Positions 23,861-32,226 of a DNA stretch of 64,000 bases are shown in pieces (within the stretch, counting starts at the first letter, position 1; every line of letters begins with the position of its first letter). The translations under genes were made by a program, and so were the position numbers. The notes below the pieces were generated by a model. It saw only the letters and a program-made list of their open reading frames with translations. It did not search any database and was not told the origin of the DNA. The stretch is from Verrucomicrobiaceae bacterium (GTDB taxonomy: Bacteria > Verrucomicrobiota > Verrucomicrobiia > Verrucomicrobiales > Verrucomicrobiaceae). The stretch covers positions 124,001-188,000 of the forward strand of contig JAIBCL010000007.1 of NCBI GenBank assembly GCA_019694165.1. Direction: 5' to 3'.

Positions 23861-24595
23861 TTACTTCACCGGTGCCGCGTTCCATATCGTGAGATCGTCG
23901 AAGAAGCCGTCCTTCCCCATGCAGCCGAATTCGACCTTGGACTTGGTGAGGTGGGCGATGCCGGGGGATTGGAGGTAGGCGACGGGCTGGCCGTCGATGG
24001 TGGCGCGCATGGTGTCGCCCACGGTTTCGAGCATGAAGGTGTGCCAGATCTGGGGATCGAGGCTGAGCGGGAAGGACACATTCTTGCGGCCTTTGGGCGT
24101 GGGCGGTTCGCCGGTGGCGCCTTCGGGGCGGGCGACGGCGAGGCCTTTCTGGTCCACGAGGATGATCTTGTCTGCCGCGATGCGCGCCATGCAGAGGTGT
24201 CCGTAGTGCGAGCCGTTGAACTTCCGGTCGTCAAACTCCGCCGTGACGGACTGCGCGCCGCCGAGCTTGAAGCGGAACTCGATCACGCTGTCCTTCGTCG
24301 GGATGTCGTTGCCGATGACGGCCTGATGCCCTTTCACCGCGGGCTTGCCATCCTTCGCCGGGGTGTCGAAGCGCATCTGCATGCCCTTCAGCGTGCCGTT
24401 CTCGAGGGCATACGTCGGCACCACGATGGCCCAGCCCTTGTCCTTGCCCAACTCCGCGCGCTCGAAGTCATCGGAGAAGAGCAGTTCCTTCTTTTTCGCG
24501 ATCGGCTCCGTGGGAATGGAGGGCAGCTTCGGCGCATCGGCGGCAAAGGTGGTGGCGGTGACAAGGCAGGCGAGCGTGAGGAAGCGGAGATTCAT
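23861..24595 (-). CDS. Secreted protein with LamG/DUF1080-like fold (tentative)
   Basis: A 244-residue exported protein with signal peptide MNLRFLTLACLVTATTFA-A and a single beta-rich domain. DDFERAELGKDKGWAIVVP opens the domain and KVEFGCMGKDGFFDDLTIW closes it. That is the pattern of concanavalin/LamG-type jelly rolls (DUF1080-like), common in secreted proteins of Verrucomicrobiota and Planctomycetota. No catalytic residues can be assigned. The first 340 bases, from the start codon, are duplicated as a broken copy at 25841-26180 on the other side of a yhcG gene. Confidence 0.7.
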   Translation of the reverse strand: MNLRFLTLACLVTATTFAADAPKLPSIPTEPIAKKKELLFSDDFERAELGKDKGWAIVVPTYALENGTLKGMQMRFDTPAKDGKPAVKGHQAVIGNDIPTKDSVIEFRFKLGGAQSVTAEFDDRKFNGSHYGHLCMARIAADKIILVDQKGLAVARPEGATGEPPTPKGRKNVSFPLSLDPQIWHTFMLETVGDTMRATIDGQPVAYLQSPGIAHLTKSKVEFGCMGKDGFFDDLTIWNAAPVK

Positions 24596-24634: not shown

Positions 24635-25735
24635 TCATTGAGTTTTCCTGGCCGTTCGCTTCTCTGCTTTGACATCGCTCAGAGCGAGTCGTTGTCGTGC
24701 GCGAACTACCGCTTGGTGGAGCTTTTGTTCGAGCTGCTTCTTGGGCAGCAGTTTCGTCCAGTAAGCCGCCACATGGATGCCGCTGCTGGCGAGTTCGAGC
24801 AGTTCGACATGCTCATCGTTCTTGCCCGCGCAGAGGATCATGCCCAGCGGCGCTCCTTCGGCGGGTTCGACGGCGTGGCGTTTGAGCCAGCCGAGATACA
24901 GCTCCATCTGCCCTTTGTCCGCTGCCTCGAAGTCGCCGAGCTTCAGATCAATCGCGACGAGCCGCTTGAGCTTCCGATGGTAGAACAGAAGATCGAGGTA
25001 GTAGTCCTTCGAATCAATCTGCATCCGCTTCTGTCGCTCCAGGAAGGCGAAGCCAATGCCGAGTTCGAGGATGAAGCTCTCCACCTCGCGCAAGATCGCC
25101 GACTCCACGTCCTTCTCGGCATAGGTGTCCTTCAGCCCGAGGAAATCGAGGATGTAGGGATCGCGAAAGACGAGGTCAGGCGTCAGCTTGTCCTCGCTGC
25201 GCAGGGCGGCGAGTTCCTGCTTGATGAGCTTGTCGGGCTTCTTGGAGAGCGCCGTGCGCTCATAGAGCATGCTCTTGATCTTCTGCTCCAGAGTCCGCGT
25301 GCTCCAGTTCTCGATGCGACACATCTCGGCGTAGAAGTCGCGTTGGAGCGGGTCGTCGAGGCGGACGATATGAAGGAAATGTGTCCAGCCCAATTTTGAC
25401 ATCAGTGATGTCAAAATCTGTCGGTCCGGGAATGCCTCGGCAAAGCGGATCATGCGGGCAAGGTTTCGCTCGCCAAACCCACGACCAAACTCGGCCTCCA
25501 ATTTTGCACTCAGTGCGGACAAAATCTGCTCGCCATACTCGGCCCGCTTCTCTTGGAGAATGTCCCGCCGAATGCGAGTGCCAATCTCCCAATAGAGGAG
25601 CGTCAGACCCGCGTTGACGGTCCGGGCGACGGCTTCGCGAGCCGTGAGGATGAGTTCGCGGACATCCGCAAGCAGCGGCACGGCAAGGGCGGCGGGCTTG
25701 GGAGCTAGCGTGCGAGGCTTGGGCTTTGCGGGCAT
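24635..25735 (-). CDS. yhcG: YhcG/DUF1016-family PD-(D/E)xK nuclease, copy 1
   Basis: A 366-residue protein of the YhcG (DUF1016) family. The N-terminal helical domain (about residues 20-150) shows LTLLYWEIGTRI, YGEQILSALSAKL, EFGRGFGERNLARMIRFAEAF and LGWTHFLHIV. The C-terminal PD-(D/E)xK nuclease-like domain (about 205-330) shows ILRELESF-like helix, then DYYLDLLFYHRKLKRLVAIDLKLG and KGQMELYLGWL. Conserved Asp in YLDLLF and the D-x-K in IDLKLG take the usual catalytic positions. The family is associated with mobile and defence loci, but its substrate is not established. The gene sits between two copies of a 341-bp direct repeat, with one perfect palindrome inside it (25394-25418) and another 45 bases upstream. 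Confidence 0.88.
   Translation of the reverse strand: MPAKPKPRTLAPKPAALAVPLLADVRELILTAREAVARTVNAGLTLLYWEIGTRIRRDILQEKRAEYGEQILSALSAKLEAEFGRGFGERNLARMIRFAEAFPDRQILTSLMSKLGWTHFLHIVRLDDPLQRDFYAEMCRIENWSTRTLEQKIKSMLYERTALSKKPDKLIKQELAALRSEDKLTPDLVFRDPYILDFLGLKDTYAEKDVESAILREVESFILELGIGFAFLERQKRMQIDSKDYYLDLLFYHRKLKRLVAIDLKLGDFEAADKGQMELYLGWLKRHAVEPAEGAPLGMILCAGKNDEHVELLELASSGIHVAAYWTKLLPKKQLEQKLHQAVVRARQRLALSDVKAEKRTARKTQ
25394..25418. repeat. Perfect 25-nt palindrome inside yhcG copy 1
   Basis: Arms ATTTTGACATCA and TGATGTCAAAAT around a single central G. It falls in the codons for QILTSLMSKLG, just before the conserved GWTH motif, the same site in the protein as the hairpin array of the second yhcG gene. 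Confidence 0.85.
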
Positions 25736-25779
25736 GGCTCGGTCAGAGTAGCGCGGTCAGGCGGCTTAGGGAAAGGTGA

Positions 25780-25804
25780 ATTGTCTCCGCAGTGCGGAGA
25801 CAAT
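25780..25804. repeat. Perfect 25-nt palindrome upstream of yhcG copy 1
   Basis: Arms ATTGTCTCCGCA and TGCGGAGACAAT around a central G, 44 bases upstream of the yhcG start and 36 bases from the direct-repeat boundary. Same geometry (12-bp arms, one-base centre) as the palindromes inside the yhcG genes. It could be an operator or a mobile-unit end. Confidence 0.85.
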
Positions 25805-25840
25805 CCGCAGCAGAATAGACGGCGGCTATGCCAGTGCGTC

Positions 25841-26180
25841 GCCGAGCTTGAAGCGGAACTCGATCACGCTGTCCTTCGTCGGGATGTCGTTGCCGATGAC
25901 CGCCTGATGCCCTTTTACCGGGGGCTTGCCATCCTTCGCCGGGGTGTCGAAGCGCATCTGCATGCCCTTCAGCGTGCCGTTCTCGAGCGCATACGTCGGC
26001 ACCACGATGGCCCAGCCCTTGTCCTTGCCCAGCTCGGCGCGCTCGAAGTCATCGGCGAAGAGCAGTTCCTTCTTCTTCGCGATCGGCTCCGTGGGAATCG
26101 AGGGCAACTTCGGCGCATCGGCGGCGAAGGCGGTGGCAGTGACCAGGCAGGCGAGCGTGAGAAGCGGACGTTCATGGGGC
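25841..26180 (-). pseudogene. Truncated, frameshifted copy of the 23861-24595 secreted-protein gene
   Basis: On the minus strand the start codon (26175) is kept, but one base is lost in codon 6 (CGCTTCCTCACG in the intact gene, CGCTTCTCACG here). This destroys the signal peptide frame. The correct frame then resumes as LPSIPTEPIAKKKELLF and ends at FKLGDALA, about codon 113, where the homology stops. It keeps about 95% identity to the intact copy, so the duplication is not ancient. Confidence 0.9.
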
Positions 26181-26299
26181 TTCGGGAACGGACACGGTTG
26201 TCTCAGTCATGCAGAAAAGGTAGGCCACATCAATCAGTAGATAGAAGGGAAGAGTTTAACGCTTGAGAGCCTCGAAACTGCTGGGGGGATGACGATTGT

Positions 26300-26315
26300 C
26301 ATGTTTTGCAACATG
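26300..26315. promoter_or_regulatory. Small dyad upstream of TIR-KAP gene
   Basis: CATGTT-ttgc-AACATG dyad, 110 bases before the TIR-KAP start, in an otherwise featureless 245-base spacer (26181-26425). A possible operator; no promoter boxes are convincing. Confidence 0.25.
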
Positions 26316-26425
26316 CCCCTTTTCCAACCTCGATTCTCTGGGAATAACCGAACGAGGTGCGTTCACAACGCGTTGATGGAGCCTAGCCCGGCTGATGTGA
26401 TCTGCCCGAGCGCTAAGAGTCCTTG

Positions 26426-28774
26426 ATGGCAGGCCAAATGCATTCCAAAGATTCATTAATCATGTCCATCCTGAATACTGACACGCCAGAAATTGGTCCG
26501 AGACTCAAGCCGCATGGAAGAGCCAAAGTCTATGTGAGCTATGCTCACCGTGATGCAAAGCATCTGAAGAAGCTGGAGGTAGAACTGACCGTGCTTTTGC
26601 ATCAGGGGTTGATTGAGGCGGTTTGGCATGATCAACACCTGGACCCAGGAGACAAGTGGCACGATCAAATCAACGCTAAACTCGAGGACGCGGATGTGAT
26701 CATTCTGCTTATCAGCGCTGCGTCCCTTGCTTCTAACTACATCACGCAAAAGGAGATACCGCACGCACTTCAAAAGTATGAGCGTCAGAGTGCCATTTTG
26801 ATACCGATCATTCTGGAGCGGTGTTCATGGTCAAGAACGGAACTTGGTAAGTTCTTTGTGCTGCCGACTGGAGGCAAACCTGTTGTGGAGTGGAAGCCTC
26901 AATCAAAAGCCTGGCATAACGTGGGGGGTGAACTGAGACGGGTCTTCGAACTCTTCAATCAAAGGGTGGTCACCGTCGGCGAAGCCGAATTGGATAACGA
27001 GCAGCCGCCCGTGACAGTTGAACCTTCTAGCGAAGACTCTTCAGCCACAAACAGTGAAGTTCGAGTTGGGCCAAGAGGGTCAAATCTGACCGACGGTCGA
27101 GCCATGCAGGATCAAGCTAGCGCAACGGACTCTATGGGGCGCTCTGAAATGATTGTTGCGCTCGCAGATTTCATTTCGTCGAAAGATTCCGTTCCCCCGC
27201 TCTCAGTGACTATCGAAGCCCCGTGGGGCGAGGGTAAGAGCAGTGCCATGGTGCAGCTCAGGCGATACTTGGCTGTTCATAAGCTGAGCCAAACGATTTG
27301 GTTCAACCCATGGCGATACACTGAACCAGAAGCGCTATGGAGCGGATTTTTGGCCGAATTCACTGAACAAATTCAAAAGGGGAAATCTCTCTTCGCCAAG
27401 TTTTTGATACAGCACCGCTACCTGCAGGCGACTTATGGCAGGTGGGTGTTGTTGAGGTGTTTCGGGGCCATTATGGCTGTCCCTATTTTGTTCTATTTGG
27501 TGCGGTGGTGGCTCCTTTCACAATTGCCAAGCCTCGCTGATGGCTGGAGTTCGTGGCTGGGCCAGATTGCTGCTATTGTGGCAGCTTGGGGTTCCTCAGT
27601 TTTCGTCGCCGCAAAGCTTTGGTTCGCATTTCACAAGCCAGTCCGAACGCTTGGCGCTGAACTTAAGGCATACTTCAGTCAACCTGACTACGCCGCCAAA
27701 CGAGGCAGCAGTGAACGTCTCCATCGTGAATTTCGCGCATGGCTCGTCGCTTGTAATAGGCCAGGGGAGCGCATCTTTGTGTTTATCGACGACCTAGATC
27801 GCTGCGCTGGTTCGCGCGCTGCGGAGCTGCTGGATTGGCTGCAACTTATGATGTCCAATATTGGCGATGGGAGCAATGACCCTTTCCCGCTAGTTGTGGT
27901 TGCTGGTTTAGATCGCGAGAAAGTGGCAGCGGCCGTTGCGATGCGCCAAAGTGAAATGATGCCGATCCTTGCTCCAGGCGATACAGCACGCGAGAAAGCC
28001 GAAGCAGCCATTATTTGGGGTTACGGATACTTGGAAAAATTTGTAGATTTGCCTGTTAGATTACCGCCTGGATCAGCGCATGTGTTGGAATCATTTTTGG
28101 CCGATCTCGCGCCAGAGGCAGTCGAATCTGAAAAGCGGTTAATGGAGGTGCAGCGCAAGAATGCAGAGGCCGCTCGCACTCTTCGCCTCGGCAACCTAGC
28201 AAAGACGTTTGACAAAACAATCCCAACACCAGCAAGTGATAACGAGAAACCCGAGGCTGGGGACGGAGTCGAAGCCCCCCTACTGTCTCATGAAGGTGAG
28301 GATTGGAGGGTTCCTGGTCTACTCAGGTCCGCCGCCGTTTGGCTGAATCATAGTCCACGGCGTATCAAACACTTTTTGAACCTTCTAAGATTACGTTGGG
28401 CTGTGCGGAGACGACTTGGAGAAGATCGAATGACACTGGAACTAACGGCGAGGCTTGTTCTGGTTGAAACTGCCCGTCCTACACTTTTTCGAGCTATTGC
28501 TGATCACTCATCAGTTAGAGCGGCCCTTTTTGAGCAGCAAAGTGAAGAGAGCCCCGGAATTTTCCGTCGTGATGGCCGTTGGATGGAAGTATTGGGATCT
28601 CAAGTGTTTGATGCTGACAAGGATTGGTTGAGCAAACATGGCGAAGCTGTCCTGGTTGATGATTGGGATGATATACTGCACGATCACCCTGAAAGCAGTC
28701 CCTCTGAGCGGGATGAGTTTGCTCTTACACGCGACGCACTTGATGCATTGATCGACGGGACACTATACCGCTAG
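26426..28774 (+). CDS. TIR-KAP P-loop NTPase (candidate defence protein)
   Basis: About 782 residues. Residues about 33-165 form a TIR domain: AKVYVSYAHRDAKHLKKLEV, WHDQHLDPGDKWHDQI, VIILLISAASLASNYITQKE. The Glu in the last segment sits at the usual NADase catalytic position. Residues about 240-680 form a KAP-family NTPase: Walker A APWGEGKSSAMV, TIWFNPWRY, two inserted membrane helices (about 348-400), Walker B FVFIDDLDRC, and RRIKHFLNLLRLRW. TIR domains commonly act as NAD+ hydrolases after infection sensing, and KAP NTPases are recurrent in phage defence. The codon and base composition is more AT-rich than the neighbours, suggesting transfer. Start codon uncertain (ATG 26426, 26438 or 26462, all before the TIR fold). 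It is convergent with yhcG copy 2 (5-base gap). Confidence 0.88.
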   Translation: MAGQMHSKDSLIMSILNTDTPEIGPRLKPHGRAKVYVSYAHRDAKHLKKLEVELTVLLHQGLIEAVWHDQHLDPGDKWHDQINAKLEDADVIILLISAASLASNYITQKEIPHALQKYERQSAILIPIILERCSWSRTELGKFFVLPTGGKPVVEWKPQSKAWHNVGGELRRVFELFNQRVVTVGEAELDNEQPPVTVEPSSEDSSATNSEVRVGPRGSNLTDGRAMQDQASATDSMGRSEMIVALADFISSKDSVPPLSVTIEAPWGEGKSSAMVQLRRYLAVHKLSQTIWFNPWRYTEPEALWSGFLAEFTEQIQKGKSLFAKFLIQHRYLQATYGRWVLLRCFGAIMAVPILFYLVRWWLLSQLPSLADGWSSWLGQIAAIVAAWGSSVFVAAKLWFAFHKPVRTLGAELKAYFSQPDYAAKRGSSERLHREFRAWLVACNRPGERIFVFIDDLDRCAGSRAAELLDWLQLMMSNIGDGSNDPFPLVVVAGLDREKVAAAVAMRQSEMMPILAPGDTAREKAEAAIIWGYGYLEKFVDLPVRLPPGSAHVLESFLADLAPEAVESEKRLMEVQRKNAEAARTLRLGNLAKTFDKTIPTPASDNEKPEAGDGVEAPLLSHEGEDWRVPGLLRSAAVWLNHSPRRIKHFLNLLRLRWAVRRRLGEDRMTLELTARLVLVETARPTLFRAIADHSSVRAALFEQQSEESPGIFRRDGRWMEVLGSQVFDADKDWLSKHGEAVLVDDWDDILHDHPESSPSERDEFALTRDALDALIDGTLYR

Positions 28775-28779
28775 ACGGC

Positions 28780-30045
28780 TCAGCGGGAAGCAGCGGCGCT
28801 CCACTCATCAAGCTTCTGCTTCAGCAGTTCTTTGGAGGGCAGGTAGAGCGAATACTCCTTCGCGTGGATGTTGGCGTCTTTCGGCAGGGTGAGTTCGACG
28901 ACGGTCTTTTTGGCGGATTTACAGAGGAGGAGGCCGATGGTGGGGTTTTCGTCGGGGAGCTTCACCTCGCGGTCGTAGTAGTTCACATACATCTGCATCT
29001 GGCCGAGGTCCTGATGCGTGAGCTTGTCGAGCTTGAGATCAATGATGACGTAGCAGCGGAGGAGGCGGTTGTAGAAGACGAGGTCCACGAAGTAGTGGTC
29101 CTCATCGAAGGTGAAGCGCTTCTGCCGGGCCTCGAAGAGGAAGCCTTTGCCAAGCTCCAGGAGGAAGTGCTCGAGGCGTCCGATGATGGCGTGCTCGAGG
29201 TCGGTCTCGGTGTAGCTGGTCTTTTCATCGAGGCCGAGGAACTCGAGCACGAGCGGCTCCTTCAAGAGGTCCTCGGGCCGGGTGATGAGCTGGCCTTCCT
29301 TCGCAAGCCGCCGGATGCCTTCCTTGTCCCGGCTGAGGGCGAGGCGCTCGTAGAGGCAGGAGGCTTTCTGGCGCTTGAGTTCGGGCACGGACCAACCGGC
29401 GTTGGTGGCCTCGATCTCGTAGAAGCTGCGTTCGTCGGGGTCTTTGATGGTGAGGAGCAGGACGTAGTGGGACCAGCTCATTGTGAAGGGGTTTCCCAAT
29501 TTCCGAGAAGCTGTCTCGGAAATCGCCAATTGGTCAGTCGCTGTCTGACCAATTTGGAGCGGCACCAATTTCCCAATAGGTTGTTGGGGAATCTCGATGG
29601 CTTCAGATTTGCCAACAGGCTGCTGGCGAATTTGAATCGGATCCAATTGCCCAGAAGCCTTCTGGGCAATTCGCCCTTCCAAAGATTGCCCAGAAGGCTT
29701 CTGGGCAATTGGGGGAACTCGGTCCTGCCACTCCAGATAGAAGCGCCGCATGTATTCGAGGTTGGCCTTCGAGAACCCTCTCCCGAACTCCTCCGTGAGC
29801 CGCGCTGAAAGCTCCTTCAGCAACTCCGCGCCATACGCCGCGCGCTTGGCTCCCTTTTGCTCGTGCTCGACAATGCGGCGGCCGATTTCGAAGTTGGTCA
29901 TCACCTGGAAGGTGTCCACGACGGTGGAAACGCCGCGTCGGGCGCTCTGGATGAGCTGGCGGACTTCGGTGAGGAGGGAGGTGAGGCCGTCCGGCTTCGT
30001 TTTGGCCGGGGTGATCGCTTTTTTGGAGACGGACGGCTTTTTCAT
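28780..30045 (-). CDS. yhcG: YhcG/DUF1016-family PD-(D/E)xK nuclease, copy 2, with in-frame hairpin array
   Basis: A 421-residue YhcG paralogue, only distantly similar to copy 1. The N-terminal helical domain has FEIGRRIVEHEQKG, YGAELLKELSARL, EFGRGFSKANLEYMRRFYL and MSWSHYVLLLTIKD. The C-terminal nuclease domain has EHFLLELGKGFLFEARQKRF, HYFVDLVFYNRLLRCYVIID, LKLDKL and QMQMYVNYYD. Between RRFYLEW and MSWSHY lies an extra segment of about 75 residues made of six variant units of the form I-x-Q-x-x-S-x-(K/Q)-L (IAQKPSGQ, IAQKASGQ, IRQQPVGK, IPQQPIGK, IGQTATDQ, ISETASRK), each encoded by a DNA palindrome. It is 3 bases from the thiC stop side. Confidence 0.88.
   Translation of the reverse strand: MKKPSVSKKAITPAKTKPDGLTSLLTEVRQLIQSARRGVSTVVDTFQVMTNFEIGRRIVEHEQKGAKRAAYGAELLKELSARLTEEFGRGFSKANLEYMRRFYLEWQDRVPPIAQKPSGQSLEGRIAQKASGQLDPIQIRQQPVGKSEAIEIPQQPIGKLVPLQIGQTATDQLAISETASRKLGNPFTMSWSHYVLLLTIKDPDERSFYEIEATNAGWSVPELKRQKASCLYERLALSRDKEGIRRLAKEGQLITRPEDLLKEPLVLEFLGLDEKTSYTETDLEHAIIGRLEHFLLELGKGFLFEARQKRFTFDEDHYFVDLVFYNRLLRCYVIIDLKLDKLTHQDLGQMQMYVNYYDREVKLPDENPTIGLLLCKSAKKTVVELTLPKDANIHAKEYSLYLPSKELLKQKLDEWSAAASR
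29500..29709. repeat. Regular array of six in-frame palindromes in yhcG copy 2
   Basis: Arms and centres on the plus strand: TTTCCGAGA/TCTCGGAAA (centre 29511); AATTGGTCAG/CTGACCAATT (29541); ATTTCCCAA/TTGGGGAAT (29580, one T-G); ATTTGCCA/TGGCGAAT (29619, one T-G); AATTGCCCAGAAG/CTTCTGGGCAATT (29658); ATTGCCCAGAAG/CTTCTGGGCAAT (29697). Centre spacings are 30, 39, 39, 39, 39 bases, that is 10 or 13 codons, so every hairpin is in the same phase of the frame. Arm sequences differ between units while the pairing is kept. Confidence 0.92.
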
Positions 30046-30048
30046 GGA

Positions 30049-32226
<2,178 letters not shown>

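Follow-up and report, generated by a model that had tools for sequence, protein, structure and literature searches.

Short in-frame DNA palindromes occur in both yhcG genes of a 64,000-nt stretch of a Verrucomicrobiaceae genome (positions 124,001 to 188,000 of contig JAIBCL010000007.1, assembly GCA_019694165.1; the whole stretch is hereafter called the window), and comparative analyses showed that such palindromes are real, family-wide in the yhcG genes sampled, uncommon outside them and under a constraint that acts on the DNA. yhcG is an unexplained gene of E. coli K-12 and represents a large family of nucleases that are candidates for a role in defence, for which a family-wide DNA constraint inside the gene provides a handle on function and predicts a substrate. 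The two genes of the window, yhcG1 (24635..25735, minus strand, 366 aa) and yhcG2 (28780..30045, minus strand, 421 aa), are plain members of the YhcG/DUF1016 PD-(D/E)XK family by profile. Both open reading frames (ORFs) match the DUF1016_N and YhcG_C domains of Pfam above the curated cut-off (E 1e-37 to 3e-50), and each matches the PADLOC candidate class PDC-S02. A preliminary description of the locus had called the two YhcG unrelated in sequence; the proteins share 37% identity and are therefore homologues.

In yhcG1, a palindrome with all 12 of 12 pairs (25393..25417, minus strand) codes for the peptide ILTSLMSKL, and a second one with 9 of 12 pairs, 108 nt from the first (25501..25525, minus strand), codes for ILSALSAKL. 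A third palindrome, again with 12 of 12 pairs, is non-coding and lies 45 nt upstream of the gene (25780..25804). The units in yhcG2 first surfaced through repeat finding as short, near-identical inverted units. They form an array of six in-frame 25-nt palindromes (29499..29709, minus strand; starts at 29499, 29529, 29568, 29607, 29646 and 29685) spaced as 39-nt units with a single step of 30, and their stems differ between units. All have the form ATT..AAT and code for peptides such as IAQKPSGQ, IRQQPVGK and IGQTATDQ. The in-frame palindromes of both genes were absent from the preliminary description, which had raised the idea of a module array; an array does exist, but it is made of palindromes inside yhcG and not of genes. 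In a 400-kb sample of the same genome, all nine ATT..AAT matches with at least 9 of 12 pairs were at yhcG, eight in the two genes and one upstream, and a mononucleotide shuffle of the sample contained none. When any ends were allowed and at least 10 of 11 pairs were required, 15 palindromes were found outside the yhcG ORFs (the upstream one included), which corresponds to 0.038/kb versus 2.1/kb inside. A near-identical palindrome of the ATTAGAATRAC..GTYATTCTAAT type was also seen outside yhcG in two loci of the slot region described below (L119:1553 and L257:12080).

The palindromes were then found across the sampled members of the family. Among the best 80 of 350 relatives of yhcG1 from genome_contigs, which by record title came from Verrucomicrobia, Planctomycetes, several proteobacterial groups, Acidobacteria, Nitrospira, Omnitrophota and others, taken together with the window, 78 of 81 had a palindrome of at least 8 bp within the 60 codons before a W-S/T-H motif. 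The palindromes are located in the codons just before this motif of DUF1016_N and are often repeated 39 or 108 nt apart. Removal of identical ORFs reduced the set from all sources from 171 to 162 distinct yhcG ORFs, of which 133 had the W-S/T-H anchor and were each compared with 60 synonymous-codon shuffles; the 29 ORFs without the anchor were left out, several of which carry palindromes nonetheless. The mean best palindrome score was 9.7, whereas the synonymous shuffles averaged 4.6 and the remainder of the gene 4.4, and the score topped all 60 shuffles in 102 of the 133 genes. A constraint on the peptide was thus ruled out as the cause of the palindromes by the synonymous shuffles. The ATT..AAT form was observed 248 times, in 134 of 162 ORFs; 236 of these occurrences share the codon phase, and 158 different 9-mers are coded. 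A separate scan of viral contigs gave 50 loci with 49 ORFs, or 47 distinct ones after removal of 2 duplicates. In these phage and prophage yhcG genes, with GC contents of 29-66%, 33 of 47 topped all shuffles and perfect arms of up to 15 bp were present. The density of palindromes was 0.75-2.6/kb in yhcG versus 0.03-0.18/kb outside in all seven sets. Our searches of open-licence PubMed Central (PMC) papers turned up no account of the yhcG palindromes.

The axis of the palindrome falls on the first codon base in 289 of 339 palindromes from cellular genes and in 56 of 69 from viral genes, so that second codon bases face third codon bases. Covariation at stem pairs 4-11 was far higher than in permutations (60-82 of 83 representatives versus shuffle maxima of 37-66), and the innermost pair was relaxed. 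One possible reading is that the palindromes form hairpins in the yhcG mRNA, which would govern its translation or decay and are perhaps cut by YhcG, in the manner of a type III toxin-antitoxin system. As RNA, palindromes with 9-15-bp arms around a relaxed centre would fold, and arrays of 39-nt units recall toxI repeats. An RNA stem, however, should tolerate G.U pairs. Silent third-base transitions making G.U were observed in 18 of 506 cases (3.6%) and those making A.C in 26 of 702 (3.7%) in cellular genes, where about 50% was expected, and the viral counts were 5 of 96 and 12 of 150. Detection that counted G.U and A.C alike gave 216 G.U versus 260 A.C in cellular genes and 57 versus 76 in viral ones. 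G.U was therefore no commoner than A.C in two data sets and under two detection schemes, which places the constraint on DNA and not on RNA. Some palindromes also stand beside yhcG in non-coding DNA, upstream or downstream, which likewise speaks against hairpins of the mRNA. The RNA reading, tested in three ways, was disfavoured, and we consider it quite unlikely.

The same lack of a G.U preference would be left by template switching during replication, which matches arms on both strands, so that changes of pairs would need no selection and the palindromes could be perfected and kept without function. Such a process should act on any near-palindrome, and the density outside yhcG is about 10 to 50 times lower than inside; the feature also persists over GC contents of 29-66% and very different peptides. 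We accordingly regard template switching as an unlikely explanation. Palindromes within one gene were more alike than those of different genes (0.716 versus 0.543; 0 of 2,000 shuffles). This likeness fits a shared reader, and common descent and duplication would do likewise. When neighbouring palindromes within a gene were compared, 553 pairs of the stem were the same, 137 differed with Watson-Crick pairing in both, and 142 differed with at least one mismatch. Stems that differ and are often still paired fit a structural site or copying as units.

Comparison of E. coli strains showed that the palindromes vary among alleles. The K-12 yhcG (L197) contains three palindromes 39 nt apart, that of O157 FDAARGOS_293 contains one and is 78 nt shorter, and that of 2022N21-074-17 contains two with other sequences. 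Of the 8 strains with a yhcG locus, 7 have a non-coding palindrome downstream of the gene, and at this same place both arms differ together between strains (ATTCTGCAG.. versus ATTCTCCAG..). Among the alleles of this palindrome, those of K-12 (ATTCTGCAGACAGTGTCTGCAGAAT) and 21F61 (ATTCTCCAGACACTGTCTGGAGAAT) differ in both arms, and that of O157 differs at the centre. Among 5,426 genomes, 944 matched a yhcG-less stretch of 201 nt between gltD and nanQ over at least 80% of its length; the three yhcG-less sites that were read each have a single palindrome, the same as that within the gene of GF47 and O157 FDAARGOS_293. A further palindrome lies after gltD in K-12 and in L216. The idea of a filled site bounded by two palindromes was rejected as a general rule, as it is true only for the K-12 type (2 of 8: L197 and L216); in the GF47 type the palindrome is on the nanQ side only.

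These alleles are what would be expected if the palindromes were small mobile or copied units, similar to repetitive extragenic palindromic (REP) or Rickettsia palindromic elements, for which yhcG is a safe in-frame home and which YhcG moves or tolerates: in-frame 39-nt units come and go among strains, both arms change together at one non-coding place, and the palindrome of the yhcG-less site is that of the gene in other strains. The units are, however, not dispersed, with a median of 3 and a maximum of 6 similar palindromes per E. coli genome and nine of nine at yhcG in the 400-kb sample, and no transposase-like tag was seen. A dispersed REP-like repeat was rejected by these counts for the genome sample and for E. 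coli, and mobile units in the wider sense appear rather unlikely to us. The intergenic palindrome of E. coli could also be a two-way transcription terminator, since it lies between the convergent gltD/yhcG and nanQ in the 7 of 8 yhcG-locus strains and in all three yhcG-less strains read. It has no clear T-run, and the exact 25-mer is common to a coding palindrome of yhcG, which makes this explanation highly improbable. Truncated yhcG alleles as products of recombination at the palindromes were not counted as a case, as those read are linked to insertion sequences (IS) or transposases. The broken alleles of L216, L217 and L218, which are of this IS- or transposase-linked kind, break off at nt 385 or nt 406 of the gene, which puts their ends within or at the third palindrome.

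The predicted protein architecture offers a candidate reader for such sites. An AlphaFold model of YhcG built with 40 relatives had a mean pLDDT of 67, and about 80 over residues 40-162. DUF91 is the NucS/EndoMS family, and in the predicted structure the nuclease domain was closest to NucS/EndoMS (Foldseek E 4.7e-5; VIA Z 9.3 and 9.0). Residues 40-162 resembled the DNA-binding domains of ParB, Noc and Spo0J with VIA Z of 6.0-6.5, a range flagged for helical folds. When YhcG profiles were compared by hhalign with 22 ParB helix-turn-helix (HTH) regions from relatives, two diverse alignments gave 89% (E 2e-6) and 67% (E 5e-5), and reversed controls, run for two alignments, gave 0.3-0.4%; the HTH_ParB hidden Markov model matched one YhcG ORF, in genome G010, at 8e-4. 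In the YhcG-ParB alignment, the segment coded by the palindromes lies between the HTH and a GHA-like motif. A sequence search of the PDB with YhcG returned nothing useful. On predicted structures and profile comparisons, YhcG resembles a fusion of a DNA-binding domain of ParB type with a nuclease of NucS/EndoMS type. The accessible part of Kosinski 2005 links the nuclease domain of YhcG to DUF91 and YraN-like Holliday-junction resolvases and does not mention in-gene palindromes (PMC1189080).

A candidate ParB-like reader, a nuclease that would be directed to structures or sites, and palindromes in and next to the gene itself led us to the idea that YhcG acts at its own sites. The ParB-like HTH domain would read two-fold symmetric DNA with the NucS/EndoMS-like nuclease attached, and the palindromes would be the sites, either as duplex or as extruded cruciform. 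Binding or cutting of its own gene could then limit the expression of YhcG and mark its own element, and related palindromes on incoming DNA might become targets. The reading of the locus as a cargo hotspot whose yhcG palindromes are putative DNA sites of a two-part YhcG is the one we favour over the alternatives, although we put it forward tentatively. In a wider and more doubtful form, yhcG would be self-addressed: its coding sequence, at largely degenerate positions, would carry the putative sites of its own protein, reader and sites would coevolve, and palindromes at the borders would steer insertion, loss and exclusion of competing yhcG elements. If this were true, one gene would encode reader and site in the same bases, and every yhcG copy would bring its own target along.

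Several observations weigh against YhcG acting at its own sites. The palindrome score failed to top all shuffles in 31 of the 133 anchored genes and 14 of the 47 viral genes, 28 of 162 ORFs lacked the ATT..AAT form, and the yhcG genes of Granulicella and Adhaeribacter plasmids had no palindrome. No such palindrome was present in four relatives (L253-L256) in which the DUF1080-like gene described below has no adjacent yhcG1. The E. coli genomes without yhcG keep the palindrome, so an adjacent gene is not needed. Stems differ inside yhcG2 yet stay largely symmetric, and a single sequence-specific dimer needs no such thing. The likeness to ParB is modest: a narrow YhcG alignment gave 0.7% with ParB, HTH_ParB reached E<=1 in only 5 of 40 YhcG members, and structural Z values below 8 may reflect a common helical arrangement.

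A close parallel to putative YhcG sites is the ParB/Spo0J-parS system, through the candidate ParB-type HTH in YhcG. The sites read by ParB are short DNA palindromes, and in B. subtilis one parS site is located within spo0J. YhcG differs in having a PD-(D/E)XK nuclease in place of the CTPase clamp, and its palindromes are longer than parS, vary from gene to gene and inside a single gene, and form in-frame arrays. A study of REP elements and REP-associated tyrosine transposases (RAYTs), together called REPtrons, describes short palindromes tied to the gene of a DNA-acting enzyme, with some REPs inside genes (PMC3733652). In contrast, the palindromes described here are in YhcG nuclease genes (Pfam) with no HUH tyrosine transposase, are tied to yhcG and not dispersed, and end in ATT..AAT and not in a GTAG or CGTC tag. 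The palindromic elements of Rickettsia likewise lie in coding sequence and leave the frame unbroken (PMC4316617). They are about 100-150 nt long and have many insertion places, whereas the yhcG palindromes are 25 nt long and occupy one position in one gene family.

yhcG genes also occur in varied contexts on plasmids. The YhcG gene of an Aeromonas media plasmid (L199) separates the M and S genes of a type I restriction operon; those of an E. coli plasmid (L198) and a Cetobacterium plasmid (L202) directly follow a site-specific integrase gene, with a 4-nt overlap, and a recombinase gene, respectively; and that of the Pseudomonas plasmid pBYT1-1 (L203) is near radC and a reverse transcriptase gene.

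Gene-context analysis indicated that the interval in which yhcG1 and yhcG2 lie looks like a cargo hotspot for defence-type genes, ordinary in kind. Its chromosomal edges are thiC (30049..32175, minus strand; Pfam) and a 244-aa gene without Pfam match (23861..24595, minus strand), which we take to be DUF1080-like and which has relatives in 31 of 35 genomes of the family. The signs of duplication noticed in the preliminary description were borne out by a repeat of the 5' part of this gene on the other side of yhcG1 (25836..26180, minus strand; 346 nt at 94.8% identity with gaps, with an ungapped core of 300 nt at 96% at 25836-26135). The order thiC, cargo, gene fragment, yhcG1 and DUF1080-like gene is common to genomes G027, G032 and G459; G025 has thiC, cargo, fragment and yhcG1, and in G022 yhcG1 is accompanied by gene pieces on a short contig that lacks thiC. 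What these relatives carry as cargo from thiC to the fragment is richer in AT (GC 0.47-0.53) and varied: a RelA/SpoT protein (PDC-S33) in G027, HEPN and a PCMT-like protein in G025, Mrr, HEPN, GmrSD/NsnA and a 23S-IVP-like protein in G459, and unassigned genes in G032. In G004 and G006, HNH is in the slot without yhcG1, and the G004 slot also holds a yhcG2 relic. The earlier view of a defence-type island thus agrees with the different defence-type genes that relatives carry between thiC and yhcG1. The arrangement of fragment and yhcG1 common to the relatives places the duplication before the TIR-KAP cargo, and the slot comparison identifies yhcG1 as the resident and the TIR-KAP gene with yhcG2 as the cargo of this genome. 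The locus would then consist of thiC, a variable defence-type cargo and a resident yhcG1 with its repeated gene fragment. The Mrr-type protein in the G459 hotspot (L257:11046-12050) also matches the PDC-S02 models of PADLOC, and in Pfam it matches only Mrr_cat.

The TIR-KAP NTPase gene itself (26423..28774, plus strand) is AT-rich and encodes 783 aa. As first proposed, TIR and KAP are joined in one chain between two YhcG genes, both domains and both neighbours being matched in Pfam: residues 36-139 are TIR_2 (E 9e-15) and residues 240-655 KAP_NTPase (E 1e-19). The assignment to KAP NTPases is by this domain, by Walker A at 269 (GEGKS) and Walker B at 452 (FVFIDDLDR), and by inserted membrane segments between them, predicted from hydropathy alone (about 341-366 and 379-403). 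A Glu is present at residue 111, presumably the catalytic position of bacterial TIRs. A structure model from the single sequence had a mean pLDDT of 36. The TIR part matches the ThsB1|ThsB model of Thoeris in PADLOC (E 2.2e-33), with the Pfam ThsB_TIR match staying under the family cut-off, and differs from Thoeris by its fusion to KAP in one chain. The KAP part matches the QatA and PifA models (PADLOC), yet scores 65.6 bits versus a cut-off of 600 for the QatA equivalog of Qat. No ThsA or QatBCD gene was noticed beside the TIR-KAP gene among the ORFs located at 20-35 kb of the window, where no search aimed at ThsA was made. The low GC content described earlier holds for the TIR-KAP gene and its edges (0.52-0.54 at 26-29 kb versus about 0.60-0.64 around) but not for yhcG1 and yhcG2 (about 0.60).

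The adjacency of these genes and the matches to ThsB, QatA/PifA and PDC-S02 would suit a new abortive-infection system formed by TIR-KAP with one or both YhcG, as had been suggested. The TIR-KAP gene is, however, on the opposite strand to both yhcG genes, and the proposed partnership did not hold up in relatives, as at least four of them (G027, G032, G025 and G459) have yhcG1 in the slot beside other cargo and no TIR-KAP there. KAP proteins in general are common (71 of 288 genomes), but beyond its own genome the KAP part of this protein was matched at E<=1e-8 only in G088 (E 1e-10, 28%) among 387 genomes of the phylum, and no TIR match was found in any ORF of 36 KAP-type loci, G088 included. 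Among plasmids, 44 records had partial TIR-KAP matches, none covering 80%, and exact short-peptide scans of genome_contigs and viral_contigs found no TIR-KAP relative. No other full-length TIR-KAP was found in these searches of phylum genomes and plasmids and in the exact-peptide scans. TIR-KAP is a singleton in the data searched, its co-occurrence with YhcG has no second case, and TIR-KAP as a conserved system was rejected for the same reason; we consider the abortive-infection system very unlikely. TIR-KAP is therefore the lesser point of this locus, one more fusion in a defence hotspot with no sign of a partnership with YhcG. Other large TIR ORFs of about 1000 aa, matched by the TIR part only, were observed in its own genome (G000:C38, L002) and in the loci of relatives.

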